IMG/VR virus record: IMGVR_UViG_3300010885_032796
Coordinates: 56,050 to 120,049 of that record
Direction: 5' to 3' (one strand)
DNA length: 64,000 nt
From: a virus
A program made the position numbers and the translations under genes. Of the stretch, positions 15,163 to 56,322 are shown in pieces. Under the pieces are notes generated by a model, which saw only the letters and a list, made by a program, of their open reading frames with translations, searched no databases and was not told the DNA's origin. The stretch's first letter is position 1; each line of letters opens with the position of its first letter.

Positions 15163-16089
15163 TTACTTGAAGTCAACGCGAGCCAGACCGTTGGTATGGC
15201 CGAAAGAGCCACCCTGTGTCTGGTAGGCAAAGTACTCAAGCATGAAAGCTTCACGACGGATGTACATCGTGGTGGGTTCCAGCTCGTAGTTCTTGCCGAT
15301 GAACTTGGGCGAGGCAAACATAAAAAGACTATCGTCGGGGACCAAATCGCGCTTGATAGTCACAATCCAACGGCAGTTGAGGAAGTTAGTTTCCGCCCAG
15401 CCGTTCTTGATGATGTCCTGCGAGAAGTCACCGCCCATTTCGTCGCGGCCGAACTTCAGCAGCTCCTTGATGGTGATGTTATTCACCAAGCAAGTTTCAA
15501 CTTCGAAGTGGCTGGACGTACGGGGCATGACCTTCAGGGCGTCAACAAGGGTCTCACGAGTGATACCGCCGCTGATCTCCTCGTACTGCACATAGCCAGA
15601 AGCCGGATTAGTGGCGCCAGCGGTGGGCAGCACAGCATTGAAGGCAGCAATGAACTTGCTATCTTCTTCAGCCAGCATGTCCTTGATCATGTTGTCCGAC
15701 AGAACCTGACGAATGTCGATCACATACGTCCGCAGCTCGTCGACGTCCTTCACAGCGCGAGGCGACACGATCCGGTCAAACATGACGCGGTAACGTGGGC
15801 CACGGATGTAGAAGTTAATCGGGAGCGTCGCGAACGGAAGCGACACAGCCGCCGGGGAATCGGGTTCCTTGTCCACAACCTTAACGGGCTTGTCAGTATC
15901 AACCTGACGGTCAAGCTCGTCGTTGGTGATGGTCAGCGGGGGCATAATCCGCCGATAGAACCCGTCTTCACGCATCTTGGTGCGCGTGAAGTCGTTAACA
16001 GCGTCGATGGCCTGCTTCTGCATGCCGGGGGTATCGAGCTGCTCAAAAAGAGTCTCATTGAGCAATTGAACTTCTTGCTGAGTGGGCAT
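15163..16089 (-). CDS. Major capsid protein (HK97 fold)
   Basis: Start chosen at ATG 16089, behind GGAGGT; an earlier in-frame ATG at 16104 overlaps that ribosome site. The 308-residue protein has the layout of phage capsid subunits: a helical N-arm, a long helix with DVDELRTYVIDIRQVLSDNMI, and beta strands around YRVMFDRI and CRWIVTIKRDLVPDDSLFMF. It is preceded in the operon by a decoration-like gene, a scaffold-like gene and the prohead protease, which fits a head assembly cluster. It forms the capsid shell. Confidence 0.8.
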   Translation of the reverse strand: MPTQQEVQLLNETLFEQLDTPGMQKQAIDAVNDFTRTKMREDGFYRRIMPPLTITNDELDRQVDTDKPVKVVDKEPDSPAAVSLPFATLPINFYIRGPRYRVMFDRIVSPRAVKDVDELRTYVIDIRQVLSDNMIKDMLAEEDSKFIAAFNAVLPTAGATNPASGYVQYEEISGGITRETLVDALKVMPRTSSHFEVETCLVNNITIKELLKFGRDEMGGDFSQDIIKNGWAETNFLNCRWIVTIKRDLVPDDSLFMFASPKFIGKNYELEPTTMYIRREAFMLEYFAYQTQGGSFGHTNGLARVDFK

Positions 16090-16127
16090 TATTGGAACCT
16101 CCATGTTCCTAGTAGTTAGTAAGTGGG

Positions 16128-17204: not shown

Positions 17205-18542
17205 TTAACGACTGATCAGTTCGATGATGTGCTGCTTCATGCTGTCACGCAACTGGCGCGACCGCTTAGTGCGAGCTTCCTTAACCTGAAACTTACCGGA
17301 GCGCTTGAAGTCAACAACCATGCGCCCAATCGAGTCCAGAGCCGCCGCCATCTTGGCCTCAGCAGCTGCGGGATCGCCGCCCATAGCGGCAGCAGGGTCA
17401 GCCGGCGGCATGCCGCCAGCTTCTGCGCCGGGAGCGCCGCCAGCCTCAGCGCCACCGTGTGACAGGGCCTGCAGCAGCGCTTCCGGTGGGATGCCAAGCT
17501 CTTCGAGGGCCATGGCCAACTCCTGAACAGCCTCTTCGTTACCGGGCTGTCCGCCACCCTCTTCGCCGCCCATCTCACCGCCCATTTCGCCACCCATCTC
17601 GCTGCCCATTTCGCCGCCCGCCATCGGCGGAGCCTCGCTCAGGCCAGATTCCATGTCGCCGGGAGCGGAGTGATCTTCACCCTCTGCAGCGTCATCGGTC
17701 GGATCGGCACCAGCGGCTTTGGACGACAAGAACCCGATAAACAGGTCAGCCATCTCGTCGGCCTCGCGCAGTGTGTTTGCGCACACCTCGCGAACAGACG
17801 CTTCAGCAGCTTCCTTATCCAGTCCAATCGCAGCCGCCAGTTCGTAGCCGGCCTTGAAGGCAGAAGCCTTAACACCAGCGTCAGAAGGCTCAAGGTCAAC
17901 AGACTTGTCCTTGCCTTCGCCCGGCATCTTCACAGCCTTCGTGCCCGACTCTTCAGCCTTTTCCTTAGCCGAAGACTCAGACGACTCGTGAGCCGAGCTG
18001 CCCTCAATCTTCTTCTTCAAGAACTCAGGCATCTCAGACTGTTTGGTCAAGTTAGCTGTACCGAAGTTAATCAGGTTCGCAAGGATCTCGTTACCAAGCG
18101 CGCCGCAATTAGCGCGGGCTTCCTTGAACGACACAGCGCTGTACTTCTCGCCGCTGTCAGCCTTAGCTGGGTGAGTAGTGCCCGGATCGTCCTTGGTGCC
18201 CTTGTAATCCTTTTCAGCTGCGGGGTCTTCACCAGTGGCAGCGGTGTTCGTGTTGATATTCAGCTGGACGTCATCCTGCCGGCCTTCTTGCGAAAGGGGA
18301 GCAGTGCTGTCAACACCGAGCGGGCCCTGCTGCTTCTTCATGTCCGCTTCGTACTCAGCGCTGCGCGCGCCCTCTGAGGCGACCTGCACGTTGTTGTCAA
18401 CATGGGCCGTGGGGTGCGTGGACGCACCGACGTAAGTACCCGGATCAGCTGGCGTAGGCGCTGCCGACTTTACAGCGCCTTCCGAGATCTCAGCAGCCAG
18501 CGCGTTGAGTTGTGCGAACAGTGAACGTGTCGTCCGTGCCAT
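17205..18542 (-). CDS. Acidic scaffold-like protein
   Basis: Start set at the second ATG, 18542, because the first (18548) touches the AAAGGAG site. The 445-residue protein is very acidic and rich in Ala, Gly, Glu and Ser. It contains Met-Gly-Gly-Glu repeats (about residues 310-330) and a basic helical C-terminus (FKRSGKFQVKEARTKRSRQLR). An acidic, low-complexity body with a basic capsid-binding tail, placed between the prohead protease and the capsid gene, is typical of phage scaffolding proteins. The role is inferred from this. Confidence 0.6.
   Translation of the reverse strand: MARTTRSLFAQLNALAAEISEGAVKSAAPTPADPGTYVGASTHPTAHVDNNVQVASEGARSAEYEADMKKQQGPLGVDSTAPLSQEGRQDDVQLNINTNTAATGEDPAAEKDYKGTKDDPGTTHPAKADSGEKYSAVSFKEARANCGALGNEILANLINFGTANLTKQSEMPEFLKKKIEGSSAHESSESSAKEKAEESGTKAVKMPGEGKDKSVDLEPSDAGVKASAFKAGYELAAAIGLDKEAAEASVREVCANTLREADEMADLFIGFLSSKAAGADPTDDAAEGEDHSAPGDMESGLSEAPPMAGGEMGSEMGGEMGGEMGGEEGGGQPGNEEAVQELAMALEELGIPPEALLQALSHGGAEAGGAPGAEAGGMPPADPAAAMGGDPAAAEAKMAAALDSIGRMVVDFKRSGKFQVKEARTKRSRQLRDSMKQHIIELISR
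17571..17625 (-). repeat. Short tandem coding repeat (MGGE units)
   Basis: Three to four imperfect copies of a roughly 12-15-base unit encode Glu-Met-Gly-(Gly/Ser)-Glu-Met-Gly-Gly inside the scaffold-like gene. Replication slippage could change the copy number. Confidence 0.7.
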
Positions 18543-18560
18543 GGTCATCTCCTTTGGGGT

Positions 18561-18586: not shown

Positions 18587-19423
18587 TCATGTGACATAAT
18601 TTTGCAGTACACAATGGTTTGTTGTCAACCAATTCTTTCCATATTTTTCGCAAACAACGGCGAGGGCAGCAATCTTATACAACGCGTAATGTTGCGCAAG
18701 TGCTGTTTCTGCATTACTGCTCGCCCGCTTCTCCGATGGAAACTCAACTGATTGAACGTTACGCAATGCAGCCAAATAAGCGCGTTTTTCAACGTTACTC
18801 GGCAACACGCTGTGCGTATAACTCACACGCTCTGCCCACGCTCTAGTGAGCGGCGAAGCAGCGGGTGCAGGTAAATATGCGTTGTGTTCAAGCTGGCTCA
18901 CAATGTCTGCATCGTTAGCCAACTTAGAGAAAATGTTAGGCAGCGCATATGCAACAGCGCCTACCAGTTTCTCGTCCGCAGACTTAACTGTCAACGCTAA
19001 GAAATCCCGCAACGGCAGAATTACACCAGCGTCGGCAAGTCCACGTAACACCTCGGCCATTTTAACAGATTGGCACTGCATAACATCAATAGCTGGTTGC
19101 ACATCTCGCGATGTTGCAAGCGCTACTTGTGTCCAACTCGGCGCCATGTGTGTAGCTTGCTTCTCTGCCTGTACCAGCTCAGCCAATACTTCCAGTTGCA
19201 GTTGTGCATACTTGGATGTAACGCCATCAGTATCAAACCCAATCGGAGCTGTTACGCCAAGCTGCTCAGCCAGCTCTGCGCCTGACAGCGTGACTGCGCC
19301 AGCGGCTTTTTCCAGCCGACCGGACACATAGGCAATACGGTCAGCCGGGCGGAAAACGTGGGAGATATCGAAGAAACTGGGGTTTGGATTATCAGCGTGC
19401 AGCACATGCCCATCTTCAAGCAC
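18587..19423 (-). CDS. C-terminal part of prohead protease, in frame after an amber codon
   Basis: A 278-residue frame that continues the protease frame exactly, after TAG at 19441-19439. The codons directly after TAG read RNIGRVLEDGHVLHADNPNP. The possible start GTG 19423 has no convincing ribosome site. The segment VLHADNPNPSFFDISHVFRPADRIAYV is of the kind that normally follows CSxCGNxAxTRxEYCD in one protein in related phage proteases. The rest is helical with several cysteines and may hold the self-cleavage or core-binding region. I infer that it is made by readthrough of the amber codon, or that the gene is interrupted. Confidence 0.6.
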   Translation of the reverse strand: MLEDGHVLHADNPNPSFFDISHVFRPADRIAYVSGRLEKAAGAVTLSGAELAEQLGVTAPIGFDTDGVTSKYAQLQLEVLAELVQAEKQATHMAPSWTQVALATSRDVQPAIDVMQCQSVKMAEVLRGLADAGVILPLRDFLALTVKSADEKLVGAVAYALPNIFSKLANDADIVSQLEHNAYLPAPAASPLTRAWAERVSYTHSVLPSNVEKRAYLAALRNVQSVEFPSEKRASSNAETALAQHYALYKIAALAVVCEKYGKNWLTTNHCVLQNYVT

Positions 19424-19438
19424 GCGGCCAATGTTGCG

Positions 19439-19441
19439 CTA
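19439..19441 (-). other. In-frame amber codon inside the protease gene
   Basis: The minus strand reads GGA TTG TAG CGC AAC. The upstream and downstream frames are the same, with no frameshift, so one base change or suppression of TAG would give a single 486-codon protease gene. Confidence 0.85.
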
Positions 19442-20047
19442 CAATCCGCCAGCTTTACAATGGCCGCCGCTCTCGACTGCATCACAATACTCAGCGCGGG
19501 TCTTGGCTGTGTTGCCGCAAGCAGAGCACTTATCAAACGGAATCTTGCAGGCCATAGAAACGGCGATGTCTCTGTCTTGCGACAGCTTCTCCATTTCTTT
19601 GTCTGCAATCAGCCCGCCATTACGGTCGGCAGCTTCTTTCGAGCCGTTCAGCGCAACAACAAGTTCGATCCGGCGCATGGGTTCGTGGTAAGCAGACGCC
19701 TTTACGATACCGAAGCTTTTGGCTTGATCCTTGTTGGCGTGGTCGCGATAGAACCGAGCAAACTTTGTGAACGTCGGGTGATACCGCTGGCAGCATTCGC
19801 GCGTGAAACCGTCGCCGTTGCGGTTCGGGCCGTAGTCTTCCGTAGCGCCAATAGCGATCATGTGTACGGGAATCTCGTCTTTGGCAAACTTGATGTTTTC
19901 AAGCTTGTGCGCAAACTCCGCGCCGGCCCGTTTGATCAGGTCAGCCTTGTCTGAGCCGAGCAGCCCGCGACTAGATAACTTAATCAACGAAGCAACTGGC
20001 TCGCTGAAGTCTTGCGCGTGCGGCTGGATAACTTTGATCATGCTCAT
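19439..20047 (-). CDS. Prohead maturation protease, N-terminal catalytic part
   Basis: A 202-residue frame (MSMIKVIQPHAQDF...). It contains IGATEDYGPNRNGDGF, then FYRDHANKDQAKSFGIVKAS and MRRIELVVALNG, a layout of phage prohead serine proteases (herpes assemblin-like fold), with the His of RDHANK a likely catalytic residue. It continues to CSACGNTAKTRAEYCD and stops at TAG 19441-19439, in the middle of a region usually continuous in such proteins. It cleaves scaffold and other head proteins during maturation. It is followed by scaffold-like and capsid genes, supporting the role. Confidence 0.7.
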   Translation of the reverse strand: MSMIKVIQPHAQDFSEPVASLIKLSSRGLLGSDKADLIKRAGAEFAHKLENIKFAKDEIPVHMIAIGATEDYGPNRNGDGFTRECCQRYHPTFTKFARFYRDHANKDQAKSFGIVKASAYHEPMRRIELVVALNGSKEAADRNGGLIADKEMEKLSQDRDIAVSMACKIPFDKCSACGNTAKTRAEYCDAVESGGHCKAGGL

Positions 20048-25201: not shown

Positions 25202-25234
25202 TTACAGTGTTTCAGCCCCTATATCCTACTGTAA
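25202..25234 (-). other. Inverted repeat over the stop of the beta' C-terminal gene
   Basis: Arms TTACAGT and ACTGTAA, 19 bases apart, enclose or touch the TAG stop at 25228-25226. The stem is 7 bp and not followed by a T-run. It may be a weak terminator or RNA-stability hairpin. Confidence 0.35.
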
Positions 25235-28200
25235 TGGTTTAGGCGCTTCCAGCGGCTTCCAGCCACTCGTTGTGCCAGTTACGCCAAACTGCTCGCCGTG
25301 AGCCAGCGCTGGGACATAGCTACTACCGGCCGAGTCGCTGCTCAGCCCGCGGTGCACGCTATTCAACAGGCCGCGCTCCTGATAAGAACCGAGCATTCGC
25401 GTCATCCAGTCAGGATCGTTCGAGATATTCGACATGCCGCGCACCATCTCTGGCTCAAACGGCGGCGGAGCTTTATGCGCTTGAATACTGTTAATGCCGT
25501 ACTTGTTCAAATTTGTGACGACATTTTTACCAATCTTTGTGCCGATTGAATAGTGCAATACTGGCTGCTCAAGATAATGGCCAGTTAACTCACTCGGTCG
25601 GCCGGCGACAGCGCCAGTTCTAGGCGTCCAGCCGCGCTCCAAAACAGAGTACGGAACAATGTCGTCGGGCGAATATTCACCCTGCTCGTCTGTCATGCGC
25701 ACGTGGTTAACCAGCCCGCGCGAAAGAAGCTCGATGTTTCGCCGGTGCGCTGGAATACCACTGTTTTGCATAACTTGCCGCATGGCTTGCACAAAGTACC
25801 GCCGGCCTTCACCAATGCCCTTGTGCTTAACGACTTCAGACGGGTTTGGCATGCCGTCAGACAACGAGTCGCCGGCCTCAAGTGTGTCGCCGCGCTTTAC
25901 AATCACCTCGCGCTCAGTCGGCACGTAGTGATCCTGCCCGTTGATCTGGACATAATGCCCGCCCTGTGGCGCTGGCCGAATACCCTGAACTTGGCCGTCT
26001 GTTTGAGCGTGCGTTGCGCCGCTTGGATACTTTTTCGGCACCTGCACTAGCGCGTTTAGCGCCTTGAAACCAGAAATAGCGCCAGCGCCGCCCACGCCGC
26101 CAGAGTGCTTTGATGAAATCTGCGACTGCGTGACCGGCTCAGAATTAGAGACAACAAGCCCGTTTTCCAGTAAAAACAAATGATCCGAATGCGCAATGTA
26201 TATGTCGTATGTCGGCCTGACGCCCGCGTCTTCTTCACGAACAAACCGCGCCCGTGTTGAGTCGTTTGTCTTTTTTGCCTCTACAACAATCTGCATTAGT
26301 TTTTCGTGTTTTACGCCGGGAATATAAAAATCTGCCAGTTTTTGTACCATGTCCCCGGCGTTGATTGTGAACACATACATGGGTCGAGCATTGTCGGCCT
26401 TCTTTTGCGACAGGCGCACAGCAGATCCGTAAATACCAAAACGCACCGCAAGAAGCTCTTTAATCCCAACAATTAATTCGCGGCTTGTGGCTCCAAACCC
26501 AATGCCATTGCTGTGTTCGTTTTTAATCACGTAGCCATCAGTGGCAAGAATTCCAGCAATATATGCACGTATTGACGCGTTTGACCACGACCATATTGTG
26601 CGCGGCAACTGTTTTTCGTAGGAATGACAACCCCATAAACCCTCGCCGCTCAGCCAATGCTTGAGCCGATTACGGTACTGCTTATTGTCAGTTTCTTTCA
26701 TGTACACAGAATCTTCATCACGAATTCGATATTCGGGGTGCGCGCCTGTCAAACTAAAACCCAGCGGACGCAATAACGCCGGTAAGTCATCGGCTAGCTC
26801 TTTGTCATAACACGTAAATCGCACAGCGTTCTCAGTTGTCAGGCAGCCGTCGCCAGTCAGGATACCGGCCAATAACGCGTACGGCTCTTCGCGCGTATCT
26901 GTGTCATCAAAACTTGTCGCGAGCTTAGCGCAAATATAGTCATGCGCGTTTGGCGGTTGAAAACCAAGCGGGCGCGTAGCTATGGCGTCAAAGTACGCCA
27001 GCCGGTTAGCGGCAGCTTTGTTAGTGCGAACAACAACTTCAGTCAGAATTTTGTGCTCACGCGTGCCGATAACTGACAGGTAGTCTTCGTCGTTTACGGC
27101 GCCTGTGCCGCGGCGATACAGCACACGTACGCACGATTTATCGCCGCTGTACTGCTGCGCCAGCACAGGTACCGGGCAGACAACGCCAGAAATTGAGCAC
27201 CCCAGCACAATGTCACCCGCAACGATGTCCTCAATCTTTTTCACAGACCCGTCAGCCATGCGTACGCGCGTGCCTGCGGCTAAACAGAGCGCCTGCGCGG
27301 CGGCGATTCCGACGTAGTCGCCAATCGGCGGGAGCCGGCCTTTTTCGCGGTAGCCGACGTCTTTGGCGTAAACGCCGCCGTCTTCAGGACCGCCAGTAAT
27401 AGGGCTGCGGACTAAGATATCTTTAACGCCCGACTGCCGTAAGTCCTGCAGGATTTTGCCCGTAAGCCGCGTGTTGCGCTTGTAGCCGCCAGCCGCGCGC
27501 GACAGAAACGCACCTTCGTTGTCCGGGTCGTCTACTTCGGTCGGCATGCCGCGCTCTTCGGCCGTCCGTAAACGCTCGGGATCGTCCTCGTCGTCATGCG
27601 TAACAAGTAGCCTGTGCGCCATTTGCGTAAGCTGCTTGCCGTAAAACCCGGCGTCAGCCGTGGCGGTCTTGAGGTCGATAACGCCTTTGCGCGTACCGAA
27701 CGCGCCGGCAAAATACTCGACCGGCGTCAAACCAGCACCGTAACCGCGCAACACGGGAATTGGAATTGGCTCGCCGCGGTGGTCTAGGTACTGCATGTCA
27801 GCGCCAATCAACGAGTTCAGCTGGAACTTATTGCCGACGCCACTGCCGAGAATCTGATGGGCTAACGGGTTATCCTGCCCCTGCGCCTCGGTAAATACTT
27901 TCTCGACCAGATCGCGCTGCGCGTTTGACGCAAGTTCGAGCAACTTGAGGTTCTTCTGCTTTTCGGTCGACTGCCGGTCGCTCAAAATCTCGTGCATCGC
28001 CGCGTGCGTCTTTATCTGCGCGTTACGTGCCGCCAGTGTTGGCCGAATGTCGTTCAAACCAAAAGACAACCCGTTTGTAGAGTAACCAGCGTCCCGGCCC
28101 ACGTCGTGCAGCGCCTTCATCACCTTTTTGTATTTGTCAGGGTGCTGTTCGGCTAGTTGAGTGGCCAACGTGCCCATCGTTTTCTTTGTCAGCACGCGCT

Positions 28201-28267
28201 CGTAGTCACGCATTTCAGGCGGCAAAGCTTCGTTGATCAGAACTTGACCAAGCGTAGTTTTCAGCAT
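25226..28267 (-). CDS. RNA polymerase beta' subunit, C-terminal half, with intein
   Basis: Start set at ATG 28267; a TTG at 28285 is possible. The host protein has the beta' pattern after the catalytic centre: LTPVEYFAGAFGTRKGVIDLKTATADAGF (about 180-210), then the trigger-loop region GIAAAQAL / SEPVTQSQISSKHSGG. An intein splits this motif. After removal about 633 residues remain. The catalytic DFDGD lies in the separate fused beta-beta'N protein, so the two must join in one enzyme. Downstream, RGDTLEAGD and the C-terminal helices fit a beta' tail. It transcribes phage genes, perhaps from within the virion. Confidence 0.85.
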   Translation of the reverse strand: MLKTTLGQVLINEALPPEMRDYERVLTKKTMGTLATQLAEQHPDKYKKVMKALHDVGRDAGYSTNGLSFGLNDIRPTLAARNAQIKTHAAMHEILSDRQSTEKQKNLKLLELASNAQRDLVEKVFTEAQGQDNPLAHQILGSGVGNKFQLNSLIGADMQYLDHRGEPIPIPVLRGYGAGLTPVEYFAGAFGTRKGVIDLKTATADAGFYGKQLTQMAHRLLVTHDDEDDPERLRTAEERGMPTEVDDPDNEGAFLSRAAGGYKRNTRLTGKILQDLRQSGVKDILVRSPITGGPEDGGVYAKDVGYREKGRLPPIGDYVGIAAAQALCLAAGTRVRMADGSVKKIEDIVAGDIVLGCSISGVVCPVPVLAQQYSGDKSCVRVLYRRGTGAVNDEDYLSVIGTREHKILTEVVVRTNKAAANRLAYFDAIATRPLGFQPPNAHDYICAKLATSFDDTDTREEPYALLAGILTGDGCLTTENAVRFTCYDKELADDLPALLRPLGFSLTGAHPEYRIRDEDSVYMKETDNKQYRNRLKHWLSGEGLWGCHSYEKQLPRTIWSWSNASIRAYIAGILATDGYVIKNEHSNGIGFGATSRELIVGIKELLAVRFGIYGSAVRLSQKKADNARPMYVFTINAGDMVQKLADFYIPGVKHEKLMQIVVEAKKTNDSTRARFVREEDAGVRPTYDIYIAHSDHLFLLENGLVVSNSEPVTQSQISSKHSGGVGGAGAISGFKALNALVQVPKKYPSGATHAQTDGQVQGIRPAPQGGHYVQINGQDHYVPTEREVIVKRGDTLEAGDSLSDGMPNPSEVVKHKGIGEGRRYFVQAMRQVMQNSGIPAHRRNIELLSRGLVNHVRMTDEQGEYSPDDIVPYSVLERGWTPRTGAVAGRPSELTGHYLEQPVLHYSIGTKIGKNVVTNLNKYGINSIQAHKAPPPFEPEMVRGMSNISNDPDWMTRMLGSYQERGLLNSVHRGLSSDSAGSSYVPALAHGEQFGVTGTTSGWKPLEAPKPLQ
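26144..27286 (-). mobile_element. Intein with LAGLIDADG endonuclease inside beta'
   Basis: 381 residues from CLAAGTRVRMADGSVKKIED (Cys1, block A) to DHLFLLENGLVVSN followed by Ser (+1). Block B is IGTREHKIL. Two LAGLIDADG-type motifs are present, LLAGILTGDG and YIAGILATDG, each with an acidic residue, so the endonuclease may be active. The penultimate residue is Ser rather than the usual His before the final Asn. It is inserted at GIAAAQAL|SEPVTQ, at the trigger-loop motif of RNA polymerase. Confidence 0.88.
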
Positions 28268-28268
28268 G

Positions 28269-28508
28269 TTAAGGCGTCCAAACAAGATTCTGAATTGGTT
28301 TTGGCTTGAAGTCTGTAACTACAACTGTCTTATCAACGCCTAACGCGCGTAACACGTTATGGAAATCTTTTTCGCCCGGCGTTGAGTACACAATAGCTTC
28401 GTCAACTTGAATAGCCACAAAGATCGGATTGCCCATGTCATCTTCGACAATGATGCTGTGGGCCTTCTGTTCGACTGGCTGCAAGTGATGCTGCGTCTTA
28501 ACTAGCAT
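28269..28508 (-). CDS. Small protein between the polymerase genes
   Basis: A 79-residue protein (MLVKTQHHLQPVEQKAHSIIV...) with mixed strands and helices. It overlaps the Pro-rich gene start by 11 bases and ends one base before the beta' C-terminal start, so it is translationally coupled. It could be a small subunit or assembly factor of the polymerase, but only the position suggests this. Confidence 0.5.
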   Translation of the reverse strand: MLVKTQHHLQPVEQKAHSIIVEDDMGNPIFVAIQVDEAIVYSTPGEKDFHNVLRALGVDKTVVVTDFKPKPIQNLVWTP

Positions 28509-29263: not shown

Positions 29264-32200
29264 TCATGTATTATCTTCCACAATATGTACCGGGGTGTCC
29301 ACTTCTATTTCCCCGCGGTGATAGGCGTGAACAGCGTCTTTCTTTGTGCGATACACCCGCGGTTTAGCTTTGTTGTTGATCCGACTAGCCGCCAAATACA
29401 GGCCAGTCTGATAATCTTTGTTCGGCACGTAATGCGCTTTGAACGACGAAGCCGAGAATAAATTCTTGCTCGGCAGCATTTTCTCGACGGCTTCTTTTGC
29501 GGCGTCTTCGGTGCTGGGCACGTGATACTGCATAGCGTCGCCGTCAAAATCTGCGCCGAAACCCTTGGTGATAACCGGGTTAACTTCCATGACTTTGTTC
29601 TTGGTGAGCCGCGGATAGAACGCCATCATGCCATACCGGTGCAACACAGGCGCGCGGTTAATCACAATTGGCCGGCTGTTCATTTGCGTGTTCAACTCGT
29701 CTGCGGCCGCTTTGCTCTTGTCAACAACAGCCTGTAACGCCTGCATTCTTGGTAAGCCGCGGCGCACAAGGCCACGCACAACGAATGGCTTGTAGATATC
29801 CCACGCTTTTTCTTCTGGCAAGGCTACTTCGTCCATGTCCAAGTCTGGGTTGGGCGTAATGACAGCACGCCCGACAAGATCGACTGTGCTGCTGAGAAGT
29901 TTACGCTGCATTGTGCCGTACTTGGGGGAGTTGCCAAATACGTGCGACAGGAAACCTTTTACGTTACGCTCGACGTTTTTGGGCTGCTGCGGATCACCCA
30001 ACCCAGTCACGGCCTTCAGCGAGTCGTATACGCCCAGACGCTCGTCGCTATATTCAGACAGTGCACCAGATGCTTCTTTCAGCGCGCCGTTAGCGTCCAG
30101 CAGCTCTTTGTACAGATAGTTAGCGTCAGCCACGAGCGGTAGTTTCTTGGGGCCCATCGTAGATACGGGCCTGAAGATTGGCGGCAGTACGGGGACTTTA
30201 GTCAGCATCCAGTCTTTCGGATGCACGCCGGTAGCCTGCGAACTCTTGAGGAAACCCAATCGGCGCACAGCCGCGTCACGAAGAGTACTCCGCCCGCTTT
30301 TGATATCTTCACGGGCTTGCTCTATGGCGTGCGGGACGTTTACTTTGGCCAAGGCTTTTTGAATTGCCTGCGGGCCAGTTGAGTCAAACAACGTCGCTTG
30401 GCCAGCCAGTACGCCGCGGAACTGCTTCTCTGTCAGACCCAACACGCGCCTAATCGGGTCTTCCATGATTGGGTTGGGCATTGGCTCGTGCAGCGTAATC
30501 TTCGACCAGCGATTGCCGCCGTGTCCGCCTGTCAGCGCCTCGTCAAACAAGCCGCCCGGAACTGGCTTCATGCGCCCCTTCCAGTCCACAGTCTCAGAGT
30601 TCTGGATTTCGCGCGTACCAGATAGCTGATCGACGTCTTTATCCGTCATCGCCATGATGTTCGTCTTTGTGCCTTGCCGCGTCACGTTGATTCCAGACGC
30701 GCGCAGCTGGCCGACAAACTTCTCGTACACATGCGGGATCTTCGGAAGCGGCGGGGCGTAACCAGCCATAAACTGCGACCAGTAATCAGGATTAGCTTGC
30801 CCGCGCACCATTTTGGCATCACGGATAACTTTGCCGGCACCGTGAGACAACAGCGCGCCAAGGTCCAGCATGCCGACGCGCTTTGCACCTTCCGAGCCGC
30901 CCTTTGCTGGCGTACCCTCGGCGGTGTAACTTCCCATTGACCGGCCCTGCGCCTTGGATTCGCTGGTGTGGTGCAGCTTCATGAAGAACCGGCTGCCAGT
31001 TAACACACCCGGAATCTTGCGGCCTGTTTCAGGGTCAAACAGGTCTTCTTTGTCAGATAGGCCGTGCTTGTCCAACTCACTCTGGGCAAAATCAATCAGA
31101 CTGTTTTGGTTGTCGAAGTCTTTGATCTTGTACGGCTTACCGGTCTTGTCCGCTACTTTACCCAGCGTAGCCTCAATGACCTGCGCTGGATTTACGCGGC
31201 TGATTAAACCAAGTGGACTAACCAGCACTTCAAATGGGTTGCCGTCTTTATCATGCGGCATCTGGTGATCTGGCACAATTTCGGCAATCACACCCTTGTC
31301 GCCAAATCTACCTGTGAGCTTGTCGCCAACTTCCATGACCGACTGGTTTTTTACAACAACGCTCACGCCCTTGTCTGTGTGCTCTACGTCGGTAACAACC
31401 CCGGGCGAATGATGATCCCACGTCACGGTTTCGTCTGTGAAACTACCAGCACGACCGCGATGCACTTTGCCGTACACCGTGTCTTTTTTCTTCGCGACAA
31501 GCACAAGGGGATCGCCGTAGTTAACAGTTGTGCCCTTTTGAATAGCGCCTTTGTCGTCAAAGTTGTCGAGCAGCTTCTTGTCGTACACAGCGGGAAACAA
31601 GCTGGTAAAAGCTTTCTTGCCTACGTGCGTGTTCTCGTCCCATTGCGCTTCATGCTGGTACATGTGCTCGCTGGTCAGACGCTTGGCCGCACTCTCTGAG
31701 ATCACGCTGGCGTCTTCGTAGTTCTTGCCTCTAAACGGCAGATAGGCCACGCGCATGTTCAAGCCAAGTGCTGCGCTACCCTTGTCGTCCGTGAAGTTAG
31801 ACCGCGCAAGAAGCTGGCCGGGTTTTACAACGTCGCCGGGCTGAACCATCGGCGTCTGGTGTAAAAACGTCTTCCGGTTGTACGGCATGTCGTTGTACAG
31901 CTCGATAGTCTTCTTGTTGCCGTCTTTATCGCGCAGCACAATTCCATCAGGAGACACCGACACAACCTGCCCGTGTGCTTCTGCGCGCGTAGCTCCAAGC
32001 CGCGTACCCATCTCGTCTTCGTGCGATGTGGTAGGGTCGTCTGCTGTGGCTGATTGGACATGCGGGGCCTGCGCGCCAACGAGCGGCAGTGCTTGGGTGA
32101 ACATGCGCGCACCCATGATGACGCGGTGGCCTTTCACCATGGTCTTCATCGGCACCATGTTGCTCAAGCTAGACAGCGTTGAGTCCATGTGCGGTAAGCT

Positions 32201-33664
32201 GTATTGCGTCTCTTCACGCGGCACATACTTCAGCCGGCCGTTGACAAGCGCAGCGACCACGGGCAACTTGTTGTGCTCTTCGCCCGGGAACACAAGCGGC
32301 GTGTCGGCCAGCTCTTGCGGCGTTTTGAAGATCTTTTCGCCGGTTTTGTTATCTATAACGGGCGTATAGATCTTGCCGTCAGCGCCCTTCATGGCACCGC
32401 GGGCAAAACGCATGTCTACGCCGACTTTTCCGCTCTCTGGTGTGCGGAGATAATCGATGAACCCAAGGTGGCTGGGCTGGACGCTACGTGATTCAGCGGG
32501 CACAGCATCGAGCGACGATATGCCGCCTTCGCCCATGCGCGTAACGCGGGTCTGGTGGTCGTAAATCTCAGCCGGGTTGATTTCTTCCAAGCTCGACCCA
32601 AGGCCAGAGCCAATTAAGGCAGCTTGAATAGACTTGTCGAACACGCTGCTGGGAATGTGGTCTACGGACTTCTTGGCCGTTGCGCGCCACAGAAGCTTAT
32701 TCAGGCCCATGCGGTCTTTGCCAAAACGCTCCGCAATCAGATCTTCAGGGCCAGCGACAGACTGAAACACCATGTTGTCACGGTCGTCTGGGTCTGACTC
32801 GCGCCTGTTCACAGCCAACAGCTTTTTGGTGATGGCTAAAATAGTTTCAGGGTTAATAGTCGTGTGCCCTGTGCCGAGCGTGCGGGTTGTGACTTCGGGA
32901 TCGAGTTGCGTCTTGGCAAACTCGGCCATGATTGCTTGCTGCTTGGCTACAGAATCAGCGCCCTCGACTTGTTTGTTCACAAGCCGCTGATAGAGCTTAT
33001 CCAGCGTGCCGGCGTCGCCCTTCTCCATATTGACTGCGGTGATGTCGTTACCCCAGTGCTCGCGCAGCTGAGTGTCAGTGACGCCCATTTGCTTGAGCAG
33101 CGGCATAAGCGGAATTTGCGCCTGCCCGATGCTGATCTTGAACACGCCCGTAGCAGGGTCGAGAAAATACCGGTGGGAGCGGCCTTTACCGGGAAGCGTG
33201 TTAACGTGCGCTTCGATTTCGCCGTTGTCTTTTTCGCGGGTAAATACACCGGGGCGCAACCGCATCTGGTGCGCTAGCGTGTACTCGACGCCGTTGTTGA
33301 CGAACGTACCGGAGTCTGTGAGATACGGCACATGGGCAATCGTCGTCTTACGCTGGCCAACTGTCTCGCCGGTTTTGTTATCTATAAGATTCCACGTGCC
33401 CTGCATTCGGCGCGACAACGAACTTTTTGTCAGAACTGCGCGCTTCTGATCAACGCGCGTAAACGTTTCTGGGCCAGCGTAACTAACGTCGGCAAGGTTC
33501 AACGAGTACAGGTCGTTTTGTACCGGTTTGATCGTCTGTGCGCTTTTCAGCGCCTGATCAAAGATATTCTGCCGCATACCAGACACGTCCCCAAACGCTC
33601 GCATGGCGGGCGCGGGAAGTGGTTGCGGCGGAGTAGTAAGCGGCGGCAGTTCGGGCGCTGGCAT
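29264..33664 (-). CDS. RNA polymerase beta subunit fused to N-terminal half of beta'
   Basis: A 1,466-residue protein. The beta part has GKNYEDASVISESAAK (about 646-661), GDKLTGRFGDKGVIAEIVPD (about 780-799), PLGLISRVNPAQVIEATLG and the clamp-proximal GSYTAEGTPAKGGSEGAKRVG (about 911-931). The beta' part starts at about 970 and has KVPVLPPIFRPVS, KYGTMQRKLLSSTVDLVGRA (1248-1267), RPIVINRAPVLHRYG and the catalytic GADFDGDAMQYHVP (DFDGD at 1372-1376). The chain ends shortly after, and the rest of beta' is a separate gene. Natural beta-beta' fusions exist (for example Helicobacter), but here the join runs only through the catalytic half. No sigma or alpha gene is seen in the window. Confidence 0.9.
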   Translation of the reverse strand: MPAPELPPLTTPPQPLPAPAMRAFGDVSGMRQNIFDQALKSAQTIKPVQNDLYSLNLADVSYAGPETFTRVDQKRAVLTKSSLSRRMQGTWNLIDNKTGETVGQRKTTIAHVPYLTDSGTFVNNGVEYTLAHQMRLRPGVFTREKDNGEIEAHVNTLPGKGRSHRYFLDPATGVFKISIGQAQIPLMPLLKQMGVTDTQLREHWGNDITAVNMEKGDAGTLDKLYQRLVNKQVEGADSVAKQQAIMAEFAKTQLDPEVTTRTLGTGHTTINPETILAITKKLLAVNRRESDPDDRDNMVFQSVAGPEDLIAERFGKDRMGLNKLLWRATAKKSVDHIPSSVFDKSIQAALIGSGLGSSLEEINPAEIYDHQTRVTRMGEGGISSLDAVPAESRSVQPSHLGFIDYLRTPESGKVGVDMRFARGAMKGADGKIYTPVIDNKTGEKIFKTPQELADTPLVFPGEEHNKLPVVAALVNGRLKYVPREETQYSLPHMDSTLSSLSNMVPMKTMVKGHRVIMGARMFTQALPLVGAQAPHVQSATADDPTTSHEDEMGTRLGATRAEAHGQVVSVSPDGIVLRDKDGNKKTIELYNDMPYNRKTFLHQTPMVQPGDVVKPGQLLARSNFTDDKGSAALGLNMRVAYLPFRGKNYEDASVISESAAKRLTSEHMYQHEAQWDENTHVGKKAFTSLFPAVYDKKLLDNFDDKGAIQKGTTVNYGDPLVLVAKKKDTVYGKVHRGRAGSFTDETVTWDHHSPGVVTDVEHTDKGVSVVVKNQSVMEVGDKLTGRFGDKGVIAEIVPDHQMPHDKDGNPFEVLVSPLGLISRVNPAQVIEATLGKVADKTGKPYKIKDFDNQNSLIDFAQSELDKHGLSDKEDLFDPETGRKIPGVLTGSRFFMKLHHTSESKAQGRSMGSYTAEGTPAKGGSEGAKRVGMLDLGALLSHGAGKVIRDAKMVRGQANPDYWSQFMAGYAPPLPKIPHVYEKFVGQLRASGINVTRQGTKTNIMAMTDKDVDQLSGTREIQNSETVDWKGRMKPVPGGLFDEALTGGHGGNRWSKITLHEPMPNPIMEDPIRRVLGLTEKQFRGVLAGQATLFDSTGPQAIQKALAKVNVPHAIEQAREDIKSGRSTLRDAAVRRLGFLKSSQATGVHPKDWMLTKVPVLPPIFRPVSTMGPKKLPLVADANYLYKELLDANGALKEASGALSEYSDERLGVYDSLKAVTGLGDPQQPKNVERNVKGFLSHVFGNSPKYGTMQRKLLSSTVDLVGRAVITPNPDLDMDEVALPEEKAWDIYKPFVVRGLVRRGLPRMQALQAVVDKSKAAADELNTQMNSRPIVINRAPVLHRYGMMAFYPRLTKNKVMEVNPVITKGFGADFDGDAMQYHVPSTEDAAKEAVEKMLPSKNLFSASSFKAHYVPNKDYQTGLYLAASRINNKAKPRVYRTKKDAVHAYHRGEIEVDTPVHIVEDNT

Positions 33665-41312: not shown

Positions 41313-41624
41313 TCACTTACCCGACAGCGCCATAAAAAGGTGCAACATGAACCGAACAAACACGACCAGCCACGCCAATGCGCCGCTAATAGCTAAAAAA
41401 ACGACTACGCTCGTGGCCGTGAGCGCCGGAAACAGCTTGTGTACGGGGATAGTCTTGAACAGCTGCCACGCCCGAATGTAACCCAGTGGGCCGGCTGGCT
41501 TAGTTGGCTCTGGCTCTGGTACTGGTGTTGGGCCGGGAGCTGGTTTTGGCTTGGGCTTAAACCAGTCTACAAGTCCGCCAAGAATAGGCCGCACTGGCTT
41601 GCCGTCTTTTTCAGTGTCAACCAT
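41313..41624 (-). CDS. Small membrane protein with Pro-rich N-terminus
   Basis: Start set at ATG 41624 with AGGTGGG upstream; the GTG at 41636 lies before that site. The 103-residue product has a Lys/Pro-rich stretch (PKPKPAPGPTPVPEPEP), then a hydrophobic segment (about 68-90). It overlaps the 2H gene stop by 8 bases. A TonB-like linker shape is suggested, but the function is unknown. Confidence 0.5.
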   Translation of the reverse strand: MVDTEKDGKPVRPILGGLVDWFKPKPKPAPGPTPVPEPEPTKPAGPLGYIRAWQLFKTIPVHKLFPALTATSVVVFLAISGALAWLVVFVRFMLHLFMALSGK

Positions 41625-43152
41625 TTTTGCGCCCACCTAAGTTTTTCAATGAGTCAAAGATATCATTACCGTACATTTGCGTCGCTTTGTCCAGCGGGTT
41701 CATCTGAGGCAGCGTTCCGTGTACAGCAGCCAACGCCATTTGATATCTATACTGCGGGTCGAGCTGCGTGCGGTACATGTGCATGTTCTGCCGCGAGTTC
41801 AAAATGAAATCGCCGCGCTGCTTTGCTTTTGACAAGTGATCCATGACGTTGGCAAACACTGGCTTAGCGTTGTCGTACACAAGCGGGTGCTGGAAGTTCA
41901 TCAGATTTGCAAACTGCTGTGCGTACACGCTGCCGTCTGTGTTGGGCACATTGAAAGCCGCTTTTACGCCGCTTGGAATAGTCGTCGGGTCAGTGTGGAA
42001 CCGGAACTTGGTCGGCATGTGCGTAATGCCCTTGAACTTGGGCGCGTCGTCGTCGATCTGCCAGTCTTGCGGCGACTGCGACATAAGCTTCCTGAGAATC
42101 TGCGCCTTGTGGCCGTAACGCTTGTTGTCAGAGTGATTCTTGGCCGCGAGCAATTCTTCGATGATCTGCGCGCGGGAAAGCTTCTCTATGAGCTTTTCTT
42201 TTGCGTAGTAGGCGGGGTCACTGGACAGGTGATCCTTGGCAATTTCTTTGGCGATTTGATCATTGTCTGTGTGTTCGTGTTCATCGGCTTGTCCTTCTGC
42301 GAGGGCTTTTGAAGAAAAATCCCGGTCGGGAACATTATCAGCTTTTCCACCATGTAACAGGTCTTTTGTTACCGTGCGGGAAAGTGTGTTAGAGTGCTGT
42401 ATTTCAGCAGTAGATGCAGCTTTACACCTGCCACAGCCCGTTTTTTTGCATACGCATGTTTCAGGGCACGTGCACGGGCCAGAACAACCGCACTCGTATG
42501 TTGTGTCTGTAGCCGCGGCTGCTTTCAGCTCGCCACGACTGGAACTCTGCATAGGCATACCGTCATCGGTGGCGTTGCCCTTGCTTATGCCGTTGGGCTG
42601 CAGCACGTTTTTACGGCGCGCGGCAATTGTGATGTGAAACTGGTGGTCGCCGTTAGGCATGGGTGACAGGCCGTAGCTCTTGCGCAGCGCTGTAAGCCCG
42701 GGCGCAGTCACGGTCATCACCCAGACTTTGCTGACGTTGCCAGCTTTGGGCGTGAACTCTTCAAGCTTGCCCAGTGAGTAATGAAACGTGTGGCCGCGCT
42801 CGTTGATCTTGTCTGGGCCAATCTTTTCAACTTCTTCGGCAGACATGACAGAGATATGCGCGTTCATTACGTCTGGCTTGTCGTCGTCGAGGCCCCACAC
42901 GCCTTTTGTGGGAAGCTCTGCGCCCGGGGCTGTCATGGCGTCAAACAAGCCACGGACAAACGCATTGGGGACAGACAAGAGCAGCCAATTGGACTTAGAC
43001 AGATACAGCCGGCCTGAAAACGCGTGGTTTGTGCTGGCCTGCTTGTCGCCCCGGTACAGCCAACCGAAGGCGTTGCCGGCTACATAGGCCGGATGCTCTC
43101 TGAGATATGCCGGATCCCATGCCAAGGGATCGAGGGCTGATAGGCTGTCCAT
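41617..43152 (-). CDS. 2H phosphoesterase-like protein with Cys-rich insert
   Basis: A 511-residue protein. Residues 98-102 (AHISV) and 172-176 (FHITI) form the two H-x-(S/T) motifs of 2H phosphoesterases, 74 residues apart, with strands around them. Residues about 219-245 are Cys-rich (ECGCSGPCTCPETCVCKK), likely a metal site. The C-terminal half is helical and structural-looking. 2H enzymes open cyclic or 2'-5' phosphodiesters; the phage anti-CBASS protein Acb1 is one. A defence-evasion or RNA-repair role is possible but is inferred from motifs only. Confidence 0.6.
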   Translation of the reverse strand: MDSLSALDPLAWDPAYLREHPAYVAGNAFGWLYRGDKQASTNHAFSGRLYLSKSNWLLLSVPNAFVRGLFDAMTAPGAELPTKGVWGLDDDKPDVMNAHISVMSAEEVEKIGPDKINERGHTFHYSLGKLEEFTPKAGNVSKVWVMTVTAPGLTALRKSYGLSPMPNGDHQFHITIAARRKNVLQPNGISKGNATDDGMPMQSSSRGELKAAAATDTTYECGCSGPCTCPETCVCKKTGCGRCKAASTAEIQHSNTLSRTVTKDLLHGGKADNVPDRDFSSKALAEGQADEHEHTDNDQIAKEIAKDHLSSDPAYYAKEKLIEKLSRAQIIEELLAAKNHSDNKRYGHKAQILRKLMSQSPQDWQIDDDAPKFKGITHMPTKFRFHTDPTTIPSGVKAAFNVPNTDGSVYAQQFANLMNFQHPLVYDNAKPVFANVMDHLSKAKQRGDFILNSRQNMHMYRTQLDPQYRYQMALAAVHGTLPQMNPLDKATQMYGNDIFDSLKNLGGRKNG

Positions 43153-43179: not shown

Positions 43180-43341
43180 CTAGTTTGGCGCGGCGTACGC
43201 TGGTTTGGCATTACCGCTTACCTGTGCGTCATGCTGTTTGTGGGCCGCAGCCGCAAACGCTGAAAACAACAGCATGGCGCAGCAGAACAGGGACGCCACC
43301 CACGCCATGACGCTCAATTGCTTACGAATCGTGATGCTCAT
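43180..43341 (-). CDS. Small membrane protein, possible spanin component
   Basis: Start set at ATG 43341 behind GAGGAGCC, 12 codons after an earlier possible start. The 53-residue product has a membrane segment (VMAWVASLFCCAMLLFSAFA) and a short polar tail. It overlaps the holin-like gene by 20 bases. Small proteins next to a holin can be spanins, but the type is not certain. Confidence 0.5.
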   Translation of the reverse strand: MSITIRKQLSVMAWVASLFCCAMLLFSAFAAAAHKQHDAQVSGNAKPAYAAPN

Positions 43342-43678
43342 GCTTTGGCTCCTCGATGTGTTCGCGTTCATGGACAATCGTGACTTTGATGCCTGAGCCA
43401 GCCAGTAAAGATATCAATAAGTCAGTCAACGTTGAACCACCCATGCCAGCGAGTACGCAAACGCCAATCAAGCCATATACGTTCTCGGCTTTCCTGTAGT
43501 TTTGGTACCAAAGCAACGCAATCGCTAACCCCATGAACCCGGCGTTAAGCATGGCGCTGACTACAGCTAGTTTAGAGAGTTTCTTGGCAAACCGCAAAAG
43601 CGTAGCCAGACCCGCAAACGCAGCTGCGCCAAACGCGCTGACGAACACACCCAGCGATGTAGAAAGCTCGTCGCTCAT
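43322..43678 (-). CDS. Holin-like membrane protein
   Basis: A 118-residue protein with three hydrophobic segments (about 9-27, 38-58 and 67-95) and a charged, His-rich C-terminus (HEREHIEEPKHEHHDS). This is the layout of three-segment holins that make holes in the inner membrane at lysis. It is followed by a spanin-like small gene. The 358-base stretch before it holds hairpins and a -10-like site, so it may have its own control. Confidence 0.6.
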   Translation of the reverse strand: MSDELSTSLGVFVSAFGAAAFAGLATLLRFAKKLSKLAVVSAMLNAGFMGLAIALLWYQNYRKAENVYGLIGVCVLAGMGGSTLTDLLISLLAGSGIKVTIVHEREHIEEPKHEHHDS

Positions 43679-44036
43679 GGTATTTAACTTCTTTGCTACG
43701 CTGTGTTTACGTCAACCAGATTAATTATACAAATGCACCAAAAGCCCTTGCGATCCCCTTCCGCAAGTCCAGTTTCAACCGAAGTCGAAAATCCACGGCG
43801 ACTTACAAAGGCGCTAAGCGCCTCGTGTGGCATTCGCCGTTCCTCCACCCGCGCGCTCGACAAAATCTGACCGCGGAACCTGTAAAGCCATTGGCATCCC
43901 TGCCGCAGACAATACGCCTAACCAGCCGGCCACCACGACTAACTTTTGGTGCACTTCAAGTTTAGCAAATTCATACCCCACTACAGAGTACGAACCCAGA
44001 CCAGCAAATTGTCAAAGAACACTGCGAATTACGCGC
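43679..44036 (-). other. Gene-free structured region upstream of the holin
   Basis: 358 bases with no supported gene. The minus strand contains several hairpins: AGGCGCTTAGCGCCT (43811-43825), TTTCGAC-TTCG-GTTGAAA with a UUCG tetraloop (43773-43790), and CTTGCG...CGCAAG (43748-43768). A TATAAT hexamer lies at 43729-43724, about 45 bases before the holin start; no clear -35 is seen. It may be a leader RNA or a promoter region for the lysis genes. Confidence 0.5.
43724..43729 (-). promoter_or_regulatory. TATAAT, possible -10 for the holin gene
   Basis: The minus strand reads GTGCATTTGTATAATTAATC. The -10 hexamer is perfect and the local sequence is AT-rich, but no matching -35 is at the usual distance. 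It lies 46-51 bases before the holin start. Confidence 0.4.
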
Positions 44037-44627: not shown

Positions 44628-45638
44628 TCAGAGAATTTTGGCCGCAATCAGACAGCCGCGGACAACAGCGTGCAGCGGGTCATTGGCGTGCCGAACTTCT
44701 TTCACAGCCAATGGAAAACCGTTCTCTTCCAGCTTGACTTTGAACATCTCGACAAAGCCCTTGGCCTGCGTTGTGCCGCCTGCCAAAGAGATCACAAGGG
44801 GCGCCGTGAACTTGGGCAAAGACTTGTGCCCCTTGAGCGCCGCAGCCAGTTGCTTGACCGTGTAGTCAATAAGCCGTTCGTAGTAGGCGCTCACAGCTGA
44901 CAGCACCGGATTGTCGTTCTGCTCGCCAATCACAAACGTGCCGTGCTCTTTCTCAGCTTGAACTACCGAATCTGACTCGGCAGTTGCGACAGCGGTCATG
45001 CGGTCGATCCAGTCGCCCGAGCGTGTCGTCGAGAACAGCACTGTGGGCTCGCCGTTGAGCATTACGCACACGTTGACCATACCTGCGCCCCACGAGAGCC
45101 CAATGCCCGTGTAGTCGTCATTTTCGAGCTCTGAGTAGCACAGCGCTTCAGCCTCGTTGATAGCGCGCGGGCTGTACCCGACGCCGGTTAAGATAGCTTT
45201 AACAGTGTCCTCGTGGTAGCCAACGTCAAAGTCTTCGTCGCCCTTGTCTACAGGCTGCGCTGGAATACAGAACACGATCTTCTCGTCGGGCTCTGTGGCT
45301 TGGCCGGCTACTTCCTGCAGAATGAAAGCCAGCACGCGCTTGGCGTCTTTCTCTTTGGGAGAAACTACGCCGCGGTACATCGGGCGCTTGGCCGAGTCAT
45401 TGCGCTCTACAGCTTTCTCGATAGCGTCTTGGCCCAGCAAAATAAAGCTTCCGTCGCTGTCTTTGACGAAGACTTTACCAGTCAGGCCCTTTTCGATCAT
45501 CTTCGTGGCCACAGGCGTCGTGGGTTTGATCACGTAGAAAGCATCGCGGAAGTCTTTGTAGGCGATGTTCGCGTTGTTCTCAGTGCTGTCTTGGGCCAGC
45601 ACGATAAAAGAAGTACCGACGTCTAAACCTTTGGCCAT
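44628..45638 (-). CDS. Actin-like ATPase
   Basis: Start set at ATG 45638, behind AAAGGA, four bases after the previous stop. The 336-residue protein shows the actin-family motifs: phosphate 1 LDVGTSFIVLAQ (residues 5-16), INEAEALCYSE (connect 1), phosphate 2 GIGLSWGAGMVNVCVM and adenosine LVISLAGGTTQAKGF. It resembles ParM and FtsA-like or Alp proteins. It may form filaments for DNA partition, phage positioning or a nucleus-like structure. A membrane-anchored protein gene sits directly upstream and may be its partner. Confidence 0.8.
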   Translation of the reverse strand: MAKGLDVGTSFIVLAQDSTENNANIAYKDFRDAFYVIKPTTPVATKMIEKGLTGKVFVKDSDGSFILLGQDAIEKAVERNDSAKRPMYRGVVSPKEKDAKRVLAFILQEVAGQATEPDEKIVFCIPAQPVDKGDEDFDVGYHEDTVKAILTGVGYSPRAINEAEALCYSELENDDYTGIGLSWGAGMVNVCVMLNGEPTVLFSTTRSGDWIDRMTAVATAESDSVVQAEKEHGTFVIGEQNDNPVLSAVSAYYERLIDYTVKQLAAALKGHKSLPKFTAPLVISLAGGTTQAKGFVEMFKVKLEENGFPLAVKEVRHANDPLHAVVRGCLIAAKIL

Positions 45639-45639
45639 G

Positions 45640-45975
45640 TCATTTTCCTTTGAGCTGCGCAAGTTTCGAGATCGAAGAAGTTATATCATCCTGTGTTTCT
45701 GTCGTTTTGCCAAGTGAAACAGGCTGGGTTTTTGCCATAGACGCGGTGCTTATCTTCGAGACAAACGTGCGGTCGTCTATCGATATCTGGTTAGCTGGCG
45801 CTGTAACGACAGGCGCAGTTCGCTCTGGTTCGCGGGCTTTGCCGTCTGTTAGCCAACTTGACGCTGGTTGTACAGGATGCGAGCAAGCCACGTCGAGCCG
45901 GCCGATGACGTAGCCTACAATCCCGCCGACGAGCAACAACAGAAAGCTGGTCGCGTACTGGTTGTACAGCTCCAT
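45640..45975 (-). CDS. Membrane-anchored protein, possible partner of the actin-like ATPase
   Basis: Start set at ATG 45975 (MELYNQYATSFLLLLVGG...). The 111-residue product has one N-terminal membrane helix (about 9-26), a polar linker with Pro and Thr, and a conserved-looking C-terminal peptide (ISSSISKLAQLKGK-like). A single membrane helix followed by a flexible linker and a short helix is the layout of filament anchors or adaptors. It ends two bases before the actin-like gene start. Function is inferred from this layout. Confidence 0.5.
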   Translation of the reverse strand: MELYNQYATSFLLLLVGGIVGYVIGRLDVACSHPVQPASSWLTDGKAREPERTAPVVTAPANQISIDDRTFVSKISTASMAKTQPVSLGKTTETQDDITSSISKLAQLKGK

Positions 45976-55599: not shown

Positions 55600-56322
55600 T
55601 TACAGCTGCTTGAGAATAGTCGCCACAAGTGGGTGGCGAACTACGTCGCTGTGGGCAAACTGGACAATGTCTATGCCAGCTATACCTTTCAGCCGGCTTA
55701 CCACGTCTCCCAATGGCGGCGGGCTGAACGGCAGGTCGCTCTGTTTCAAGTCGCCAGTCACAATGACCTTGGTGTTCTGGCCGAATCTACTGAGAAAGAG
55801 CTTGAGTTGGGCATACGTGGCGTTCTGGGCCTCGTCAAAGATGCAGATAGCGTCGTTGAACGTCCGGCCGCGCATGTAGCACAGCGGAGCTAGGACGATG
55901 CTTTTGTTGATGTGCTCACGCTTGGCGCCAAACTTACCCAGCAGCGTGTCCATCGTGTCGAACAGCGGCTGCATGTACGGGTTGACCTTGTCGCCAAACG
56001 TACCCGGGAGAAAGCCCAGCTTCTCGCCAGCGTCTACGATGGGCCGGGTCAGCACAATAGACGTGTGCCGGCGGGCTAGAACCTCGTTGATCGCGTAGGC
56101 CATACCCAAGAAAGTCTTGCCCGAACCAGCTGAGCCAAGCAAGAACGTGATGTCGTGCGCATGCAACGACTGCCACGCTTGCTTCTGCATCTCTGTCCGC
56201 CACGTTATGTCAACGGGCTGAAGCGCAGCTGTCTCTTTAGCCTGCTGGTCTTGCTTGCGTTTGGCTTTCTTGTCAGCAACGCGGGAAACATTGGGCTTAT
56301 CGCCAGTGGCTTTTTTGCGCAT
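55600..56322 (-). CDS. phoH: PhoH-like ATPase
   Basis: A 240-residue protein with Walker A GSAGSGKT (63-70), then the PhoH pattern RPIVDAGEKLGFLPGTFGDK, Walker B CIFDEAQNA and VIVTGDLKQSD (sensor). The basic N-terminus may bind RNA. PhoH proteins are common in large phages and may act in RNA metabolism or under phosphate stress. It stands before a strong terminator, so its transcript ends here or is attenuated. Confidence 0.9.
   Translation of the reverse strand: MRKKATGDKPNVSRVADKKAKRKQDQQAKETAALQPVDITWRTEMQKQAWQSLHAHDITFLLGSAGSGKTFLGMAYAINEVLARRHTSIVLTRPIVDAGEKLGFLPGTFGDKVNPYMQPLFDTMDTLLGKFGAKREHINKSIVLAPLCYMRGRTFNDAICIFDEAQNATYAQLKLFLSRFGQNTKVIVTGDLKQSDLPFSPPPLGDVVSRLKGIAGIDIVQFAHSDVVRHPLVATILKQL

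Follow-up and report, generated by a model that had tools for sequence, protein, structure and literature searches.

Background

In Salmonella phage SPN3US, maturation of the head is reported to depend on cleavage of head proteins by the prohead protease, an essential step as shown with amber mutants in a non-permissive host (PMC9026906). The same paper describes an essential short form of T4 gp21 that arises from an internal start, as an N-terminal truncation of an unbroken gene. Gp222 of Salmonella phage Arash, which belongs to PHROG 2774, has been detected in virions by mass spectrometry with 84.93% coverage (PMC10585845). Stop codons within reading frames are familiar from phages that reassign TAG: in-frame TAG occurs in 41 ORFs of phAss-1 (PMC10607447), and 52% of predicted code-15 phages have a Sup-CTA tRNA (PMC11210395).

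The locus considered here is a protease gene interrupted by a single in-frame TAG. It lies in a stretch of 64,000 nucleotides (the window), which corresponds to positions 56050–120049 of a 120,049-base IMG/VR record. This contig is a genome fragment; near-complete relatives measure about 193–205 kb, and about 85 kb of the expected length of about 205 kb is missing. Comparison with relatives indicates that the TAG is very probably no recoding signal but a single nonsense codon, private to this record, in a protease gene that is strongly conserved and otherwise intact.

Gene organization and conservation among relatives

The gene occupies 18587..20047 on the minus strand. Its 5′ part, an ORF of 202 codons (19439..20047, minus strand), terminates at the TAG (19439..19441), after which the frame stays open for 283 codons (18587..19438) to a TGA at 18587. 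As the initial annotation had stated, with coordinates that proved exact, the TAG at 19441–19439 is the sole stop between two stretches of the same frame. The 5′ part carries the N-terminal region, the invariant residues His103 and Ser164, and a cysteine cluster, while the 3′ part carries the last strand of the protease fold followed by a helical C-terminal region. The next gene downstream on the same strand (17205..18548) encodes a 447-residue protein rich in Glu, Ala and Gly, which appears scaffold-like in composition and position.

When viral contigs were searched with the 5′ part, 43 relatives were obtained, all of which have single ORFs of 483–493 residues that begin at an equivalent start and run through the site. 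Both parts of the window gene align end to end with these uninterrupted ORFs in 43 of 43 close relatives. Consequently, the two stretches represent one gene, and the earlier view of the segments on either side of the TAG as one conserved region holds. When searches with the 5′ part, the 3′ part and the alignment were pooled by contig name, 81 distinct contigs were obtained. None of the 81 has a stop at or near the site, and none carries the protease as two separate proteins. The step used to confirm relatives translates through stops, so broken copies would have shown up rather than being filtered. A degenerate pattern allowing any stop in this sequence context found no other viral contig, and a search of bacterial genomes for the same gene found none.

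The residue at the TAG position is Lys in 42 of the 49 relatives tabulated and Arg in four, with Met, Ser and Gln once each; more distant relatives have Ala, Tyr and others. Across the family, the site thus tolerates K, R, Q, Y, M, S and A.

These comparisons bear directly on programmed readthrough, one of the explanations put forward at first, in which a short protease of 202 residues and a long one would be produced in a fixed ratio. The single frame on both sides of the TAG would suit such a mechanism, as would the constraint on the 3′ part, which a very young stop or a base error would predict just as well. The absence of the stop from all 81 relatives contradicts it. Moreover, the 100 nt that follow the TAG are no more structured than shuffled sequences (z +0.67), and the short form would end within the protease fold. 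Programmed readthrough is therefore extremely improbable. Recoding at the TAG would have made it a conditional switch for capsid maturation, an idea that the comparison leaves without support.

A working split gene, in which translation of the 3′ part begins at an internal start and both pieces act together, requires a usable start after the TAG. In-frame GTG codons are present at 19423 and 19405, and the short form of T4 gp21 offers a partial precedent, but as described in PMC9026906 it is an N-terminal truncation of an unbroken gene. The ribosome sites of the restart candidates are weak (−1.5 kcal/mol for GTG 19423; −4.3 for the best), in agreement with the original remark that the downstream part lacks a good ribosome site. 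That argument is soft, however, because the true start is itself weak (−2.5). Also against a split gene are that relatives do not preserve the codon at 19423 as a start, that none of them is split, and that the break lies inside the protease fold. The chance that two separately translated pieces form a functional enzyme is accordingly rated as slight in the extreme.

Assignment to the prohead protease family

The protease sequence gave no match in Pfam, NCBIfam or PDB sequences. PHROG 2774, of unknown function, matches the family broadly, and PHROG 18299, "head maturation protease", matches three of 34 members, with a best E value of 5e-7. A structure predicted for a full-length homolog was of low confidence and had no PDB match; consequently, a domain-only model built with more diverse relatives was used instead. 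This model, derived from 34 diverse natural homologs, reached a mean pLDDT of 79.9 and a pTM of 0.73. Foldseek alone gave no significant match between the domain model and the PDB. Realignment of the Foldseek candidates with VIA-align placed the T4 gp21 prohead protease (5JBL) first, with Z 8.9 and an rmsd of 3.6 over 134 aligned residues within model positions 1–209, followed by herpesvirus proteases (assemblins) at Z 6.1 and below. Given how far it stands above the rows that follow, and given the biology of the best-ranked rows, the match of the predicted structure to gp21 is credible. Among the viral structural matches, some predicted structures likewise carry the name prohead protease.

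Two residues are invariant across alignments A1 and A3, down to about 30% identity: His103 (codon 19739..19741, minus strand) and Ser164 in the motif VSMAC (codon 19556..19558, minus strand). Judging from this conservation, they are probably the catalytic residues. The gene lies upstream of the major capsid protein gene (15163..16104) on the same strand, whose product has 30% identity to the major capsid protein of Salmonella phage Arash. The predicted fold, the invariant His and Ser, and the position near the major capsid gene support the initial annotation of the gene as a head-maturation (prohead) protease, with a gp21/assemblin fold and predicted proteolytic activity. By the same token, a large uncharacterised family, PHROG 2774 and its relatives, can be assigned, at the level of modelled structure, to the gp21-type protease fold.

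Relatives L105, L110, L218, L221 and L216 carry inteins in the protease gene, where they sit at the probable active site. In four relative contigs, the intein follows VSMA at the Ser motif. L216 has two other inteins, the first preceding CNRNGDGF and the second preceding CNKDPQKSYG, next to the His motif.

Predicted consequence of termination

In the domain model, the TAG corresponds to residue 179, within the region matched to T4 gp21 (1–209). It falls just after the cysteine cluster CxxC...C...C (C174–C197; 19457..19528, minus strand), a possible metal knuckle, and precedes strand 201–205 and the block FFDISxVFRPADRIAY (19328..19375, minus strand), the most conserved stretch of the family. 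Termination at this codon would therefore cut inside the modelled protease fold. With a real TAG and no suppression, translation would end after residue 202. The short product would keep the probable catalytic His103 and Ser164 and the cysteine cluster. Missing from it would be the product of 283 codons in total, comprising the final strand of the fold, the near-invariant FFDISxVFRPADRIAY block and all that lies downstream. A protease truncated in this way should be inactive, and heads would be expected to fail to mature.

Genetic code and suppression

A change of the genetic code as a whole was considered and rejected. Among 99 homolog-supported gene ends in the contig, TAA closes 41, TGA 40 and TAG 18, which bears out the earlier observation that TAG is an ordinary stop elsewhere in this DNA. 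Over the roughly 84 kb of coding sequence that aligns to a relative, the protease TAG is the only in-frame TAG, and no other true internal stop or frameshift was found; the apparent exception in the coding scan, at 43325–43963, is a non-coding structured RNA.

A real amber allele could also be sustained by a suppressor tRNA that inserts an amino acid, encoded either by the host or in the missing part of the phage genome. The full constraint on the 3′ part is in line with this, and low-level suppression could suffice at a site that tolerates several residues, Gln and Tyr included. The 120 kb contig has a single tRNA, for Thr, and no anticodon CUA; the suppressor suggested initially was not found in this part, and the missing 85 kb or so leaves room for one. 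No anticodon CUA was found in relatives either (covering two entire genomes and the best-scoring tRNA loci in nine others), whose tRNAs read Lys, Leu, Val, Glu, Asn, Thr, Gln, Met and Ile codons and none of which reads UAG. A suppressor would, in addition, read through the 18 gene ends that use TAG. On balance, a suppressed allele is unlikely. The stronger proposition, in which the phage relies on a suppressing host, or on an unsequenced tRNA of its own, to read a lone amber codon in the head protease gene, is more doubtful still; if true, head maturation would be confined to suppressing cells.

Some relatives (G001 at 67951–68292, L119 and L139) have their own tmRNA gene within a tRNA cluster, and the corresponding part is missing from the contig of the window.

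Age and origin of the stop codon

A stop that had remained unsuppressed over much of the branch leading to the window should have left traces in the sequence behind it. No decay is detectable after the TAG. The ratio of nonsynonymous change in the C-terminal part to that in the N-terminal part has a median of 2.21 in comparisons involving the window, against 2.67 among relatives (95% range 1.83–3.71). Of 64 C-terminal columns that are invariant in all other relatives, one is violated in the window. The branch of the window is long, at 0.17 changes per column, with saturated synonymous sites. The lack of decay on such a long branch implies that the stop arose very recently, is suppressed or does not really exist. 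No relative close enough to date the stop was found among the records searched, from which near-identical ones may be missing, the nearest having about 80% protein identity and saturated synonymous sites.

The likeliest single reading is a wrong consensus base in the metagenome contig, which we judge to have about an even chance of being correct. Across seven genes around the TAG, there are four singular departures in 425 otherwise invariant positions, which is similar to the relatives. The contig is therefore not broadly error-ridden, and its cleanness speaks weakly against a base error. The recent inactivation proposed at first, through a nonsense allele that is very young and probably defective, is judged a serious though less probable possibility. 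An allele of this kind at consensus level would be hard to maintain where the product is essential in studied phages, and a base error is for this reason placed slightly ahead of it. The practical lesson is that, before recoding is proposed for a lone stop known from a single metagenomic record, the site should be compared with relatives.

Other features of the window

A structured RNA of about 218 nt at 43735–43952 (minus strand; model match 43719–43975) lies upstream of a 118-residue ORF (43322–43678). Its sequence in the window folds better than shuffles (z −2.9), and it was present in 12 of 12 close relatives tested. The alignment of 13 sequences supports 67 consensus pairs, with 97.7% of cells paired, and 41 pairs show changes on both sides, compared with 19.1 on average for shuffles and no more than 13 for slid controls. 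No Rfam family matched, even at relaxed thresholds (E 5). The covariance model R1 found the RNA in six further phages outside its training set, giving 18 relatives in all; five of the six further matches are modest, at 37–52 bits (E 3e-11 to 1e-16), and 18 other records had no match to the model. The RNA is a candidate for a new phage RNA family and deserves more attention than the TAG finding. Close to it, at 41617–43152 (minus strand), is a gene for a 511-residue protein with a 2H-SAK phosphoesterase domain (PF22547).

Several other genes on the minus strand are also worth recording. A single chain of 1466 residues (29264–33664) holds RNA polymerase domains of both the beta (Rpb2) and the beta′ N-terminal (Rpb1) type, and the beta′ C-terminal part is a separate gene (25226–28285). 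The latter bears an in-frame LAGLIDADG-type intein of 381 residues (26144–27286) just before the SEPVTQ motif; this intein is absent from the two relatives compared. The Volactin family of actin-like proteins is represented by a gene at 44628–45662 (PF25216, E 1.5e-62).

Comparison with known systems

The interrupted gene resembles those of TAG-reassigning phages (code 15, crAss-like and Lak phages) in having an in-frame TAG in a late structural gene. The difference is that this contig has one in-frame TAG, uses TAG as a normal stop and yielded no Sup-CTA tRNA. The SPN3US gp245 am strains share with it a nonsense codon in a prohead protease; these, however, are laboratory mutants, whereas the TAG of the window comes from one environmental record and may be an error. 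The PHROG 2774 homologs of Salmonella phage Arash (Gp222) and of Mycobacterium phages (Bixzunavirus) share a homologous core that spans the TAG site, but they are uninterrupted and not annotated as proteases, and the Arash homolog is without the second part of the cysteine cluster. T4 gp21 (5JBL) and the assemblins provide the closest parallel in fold, in the invariant His and Ser, and in the location of the gene upstream of the major capsid gene. The protease of the window differs from them in its extra cysteine cluster and its long helical C-terminal region.
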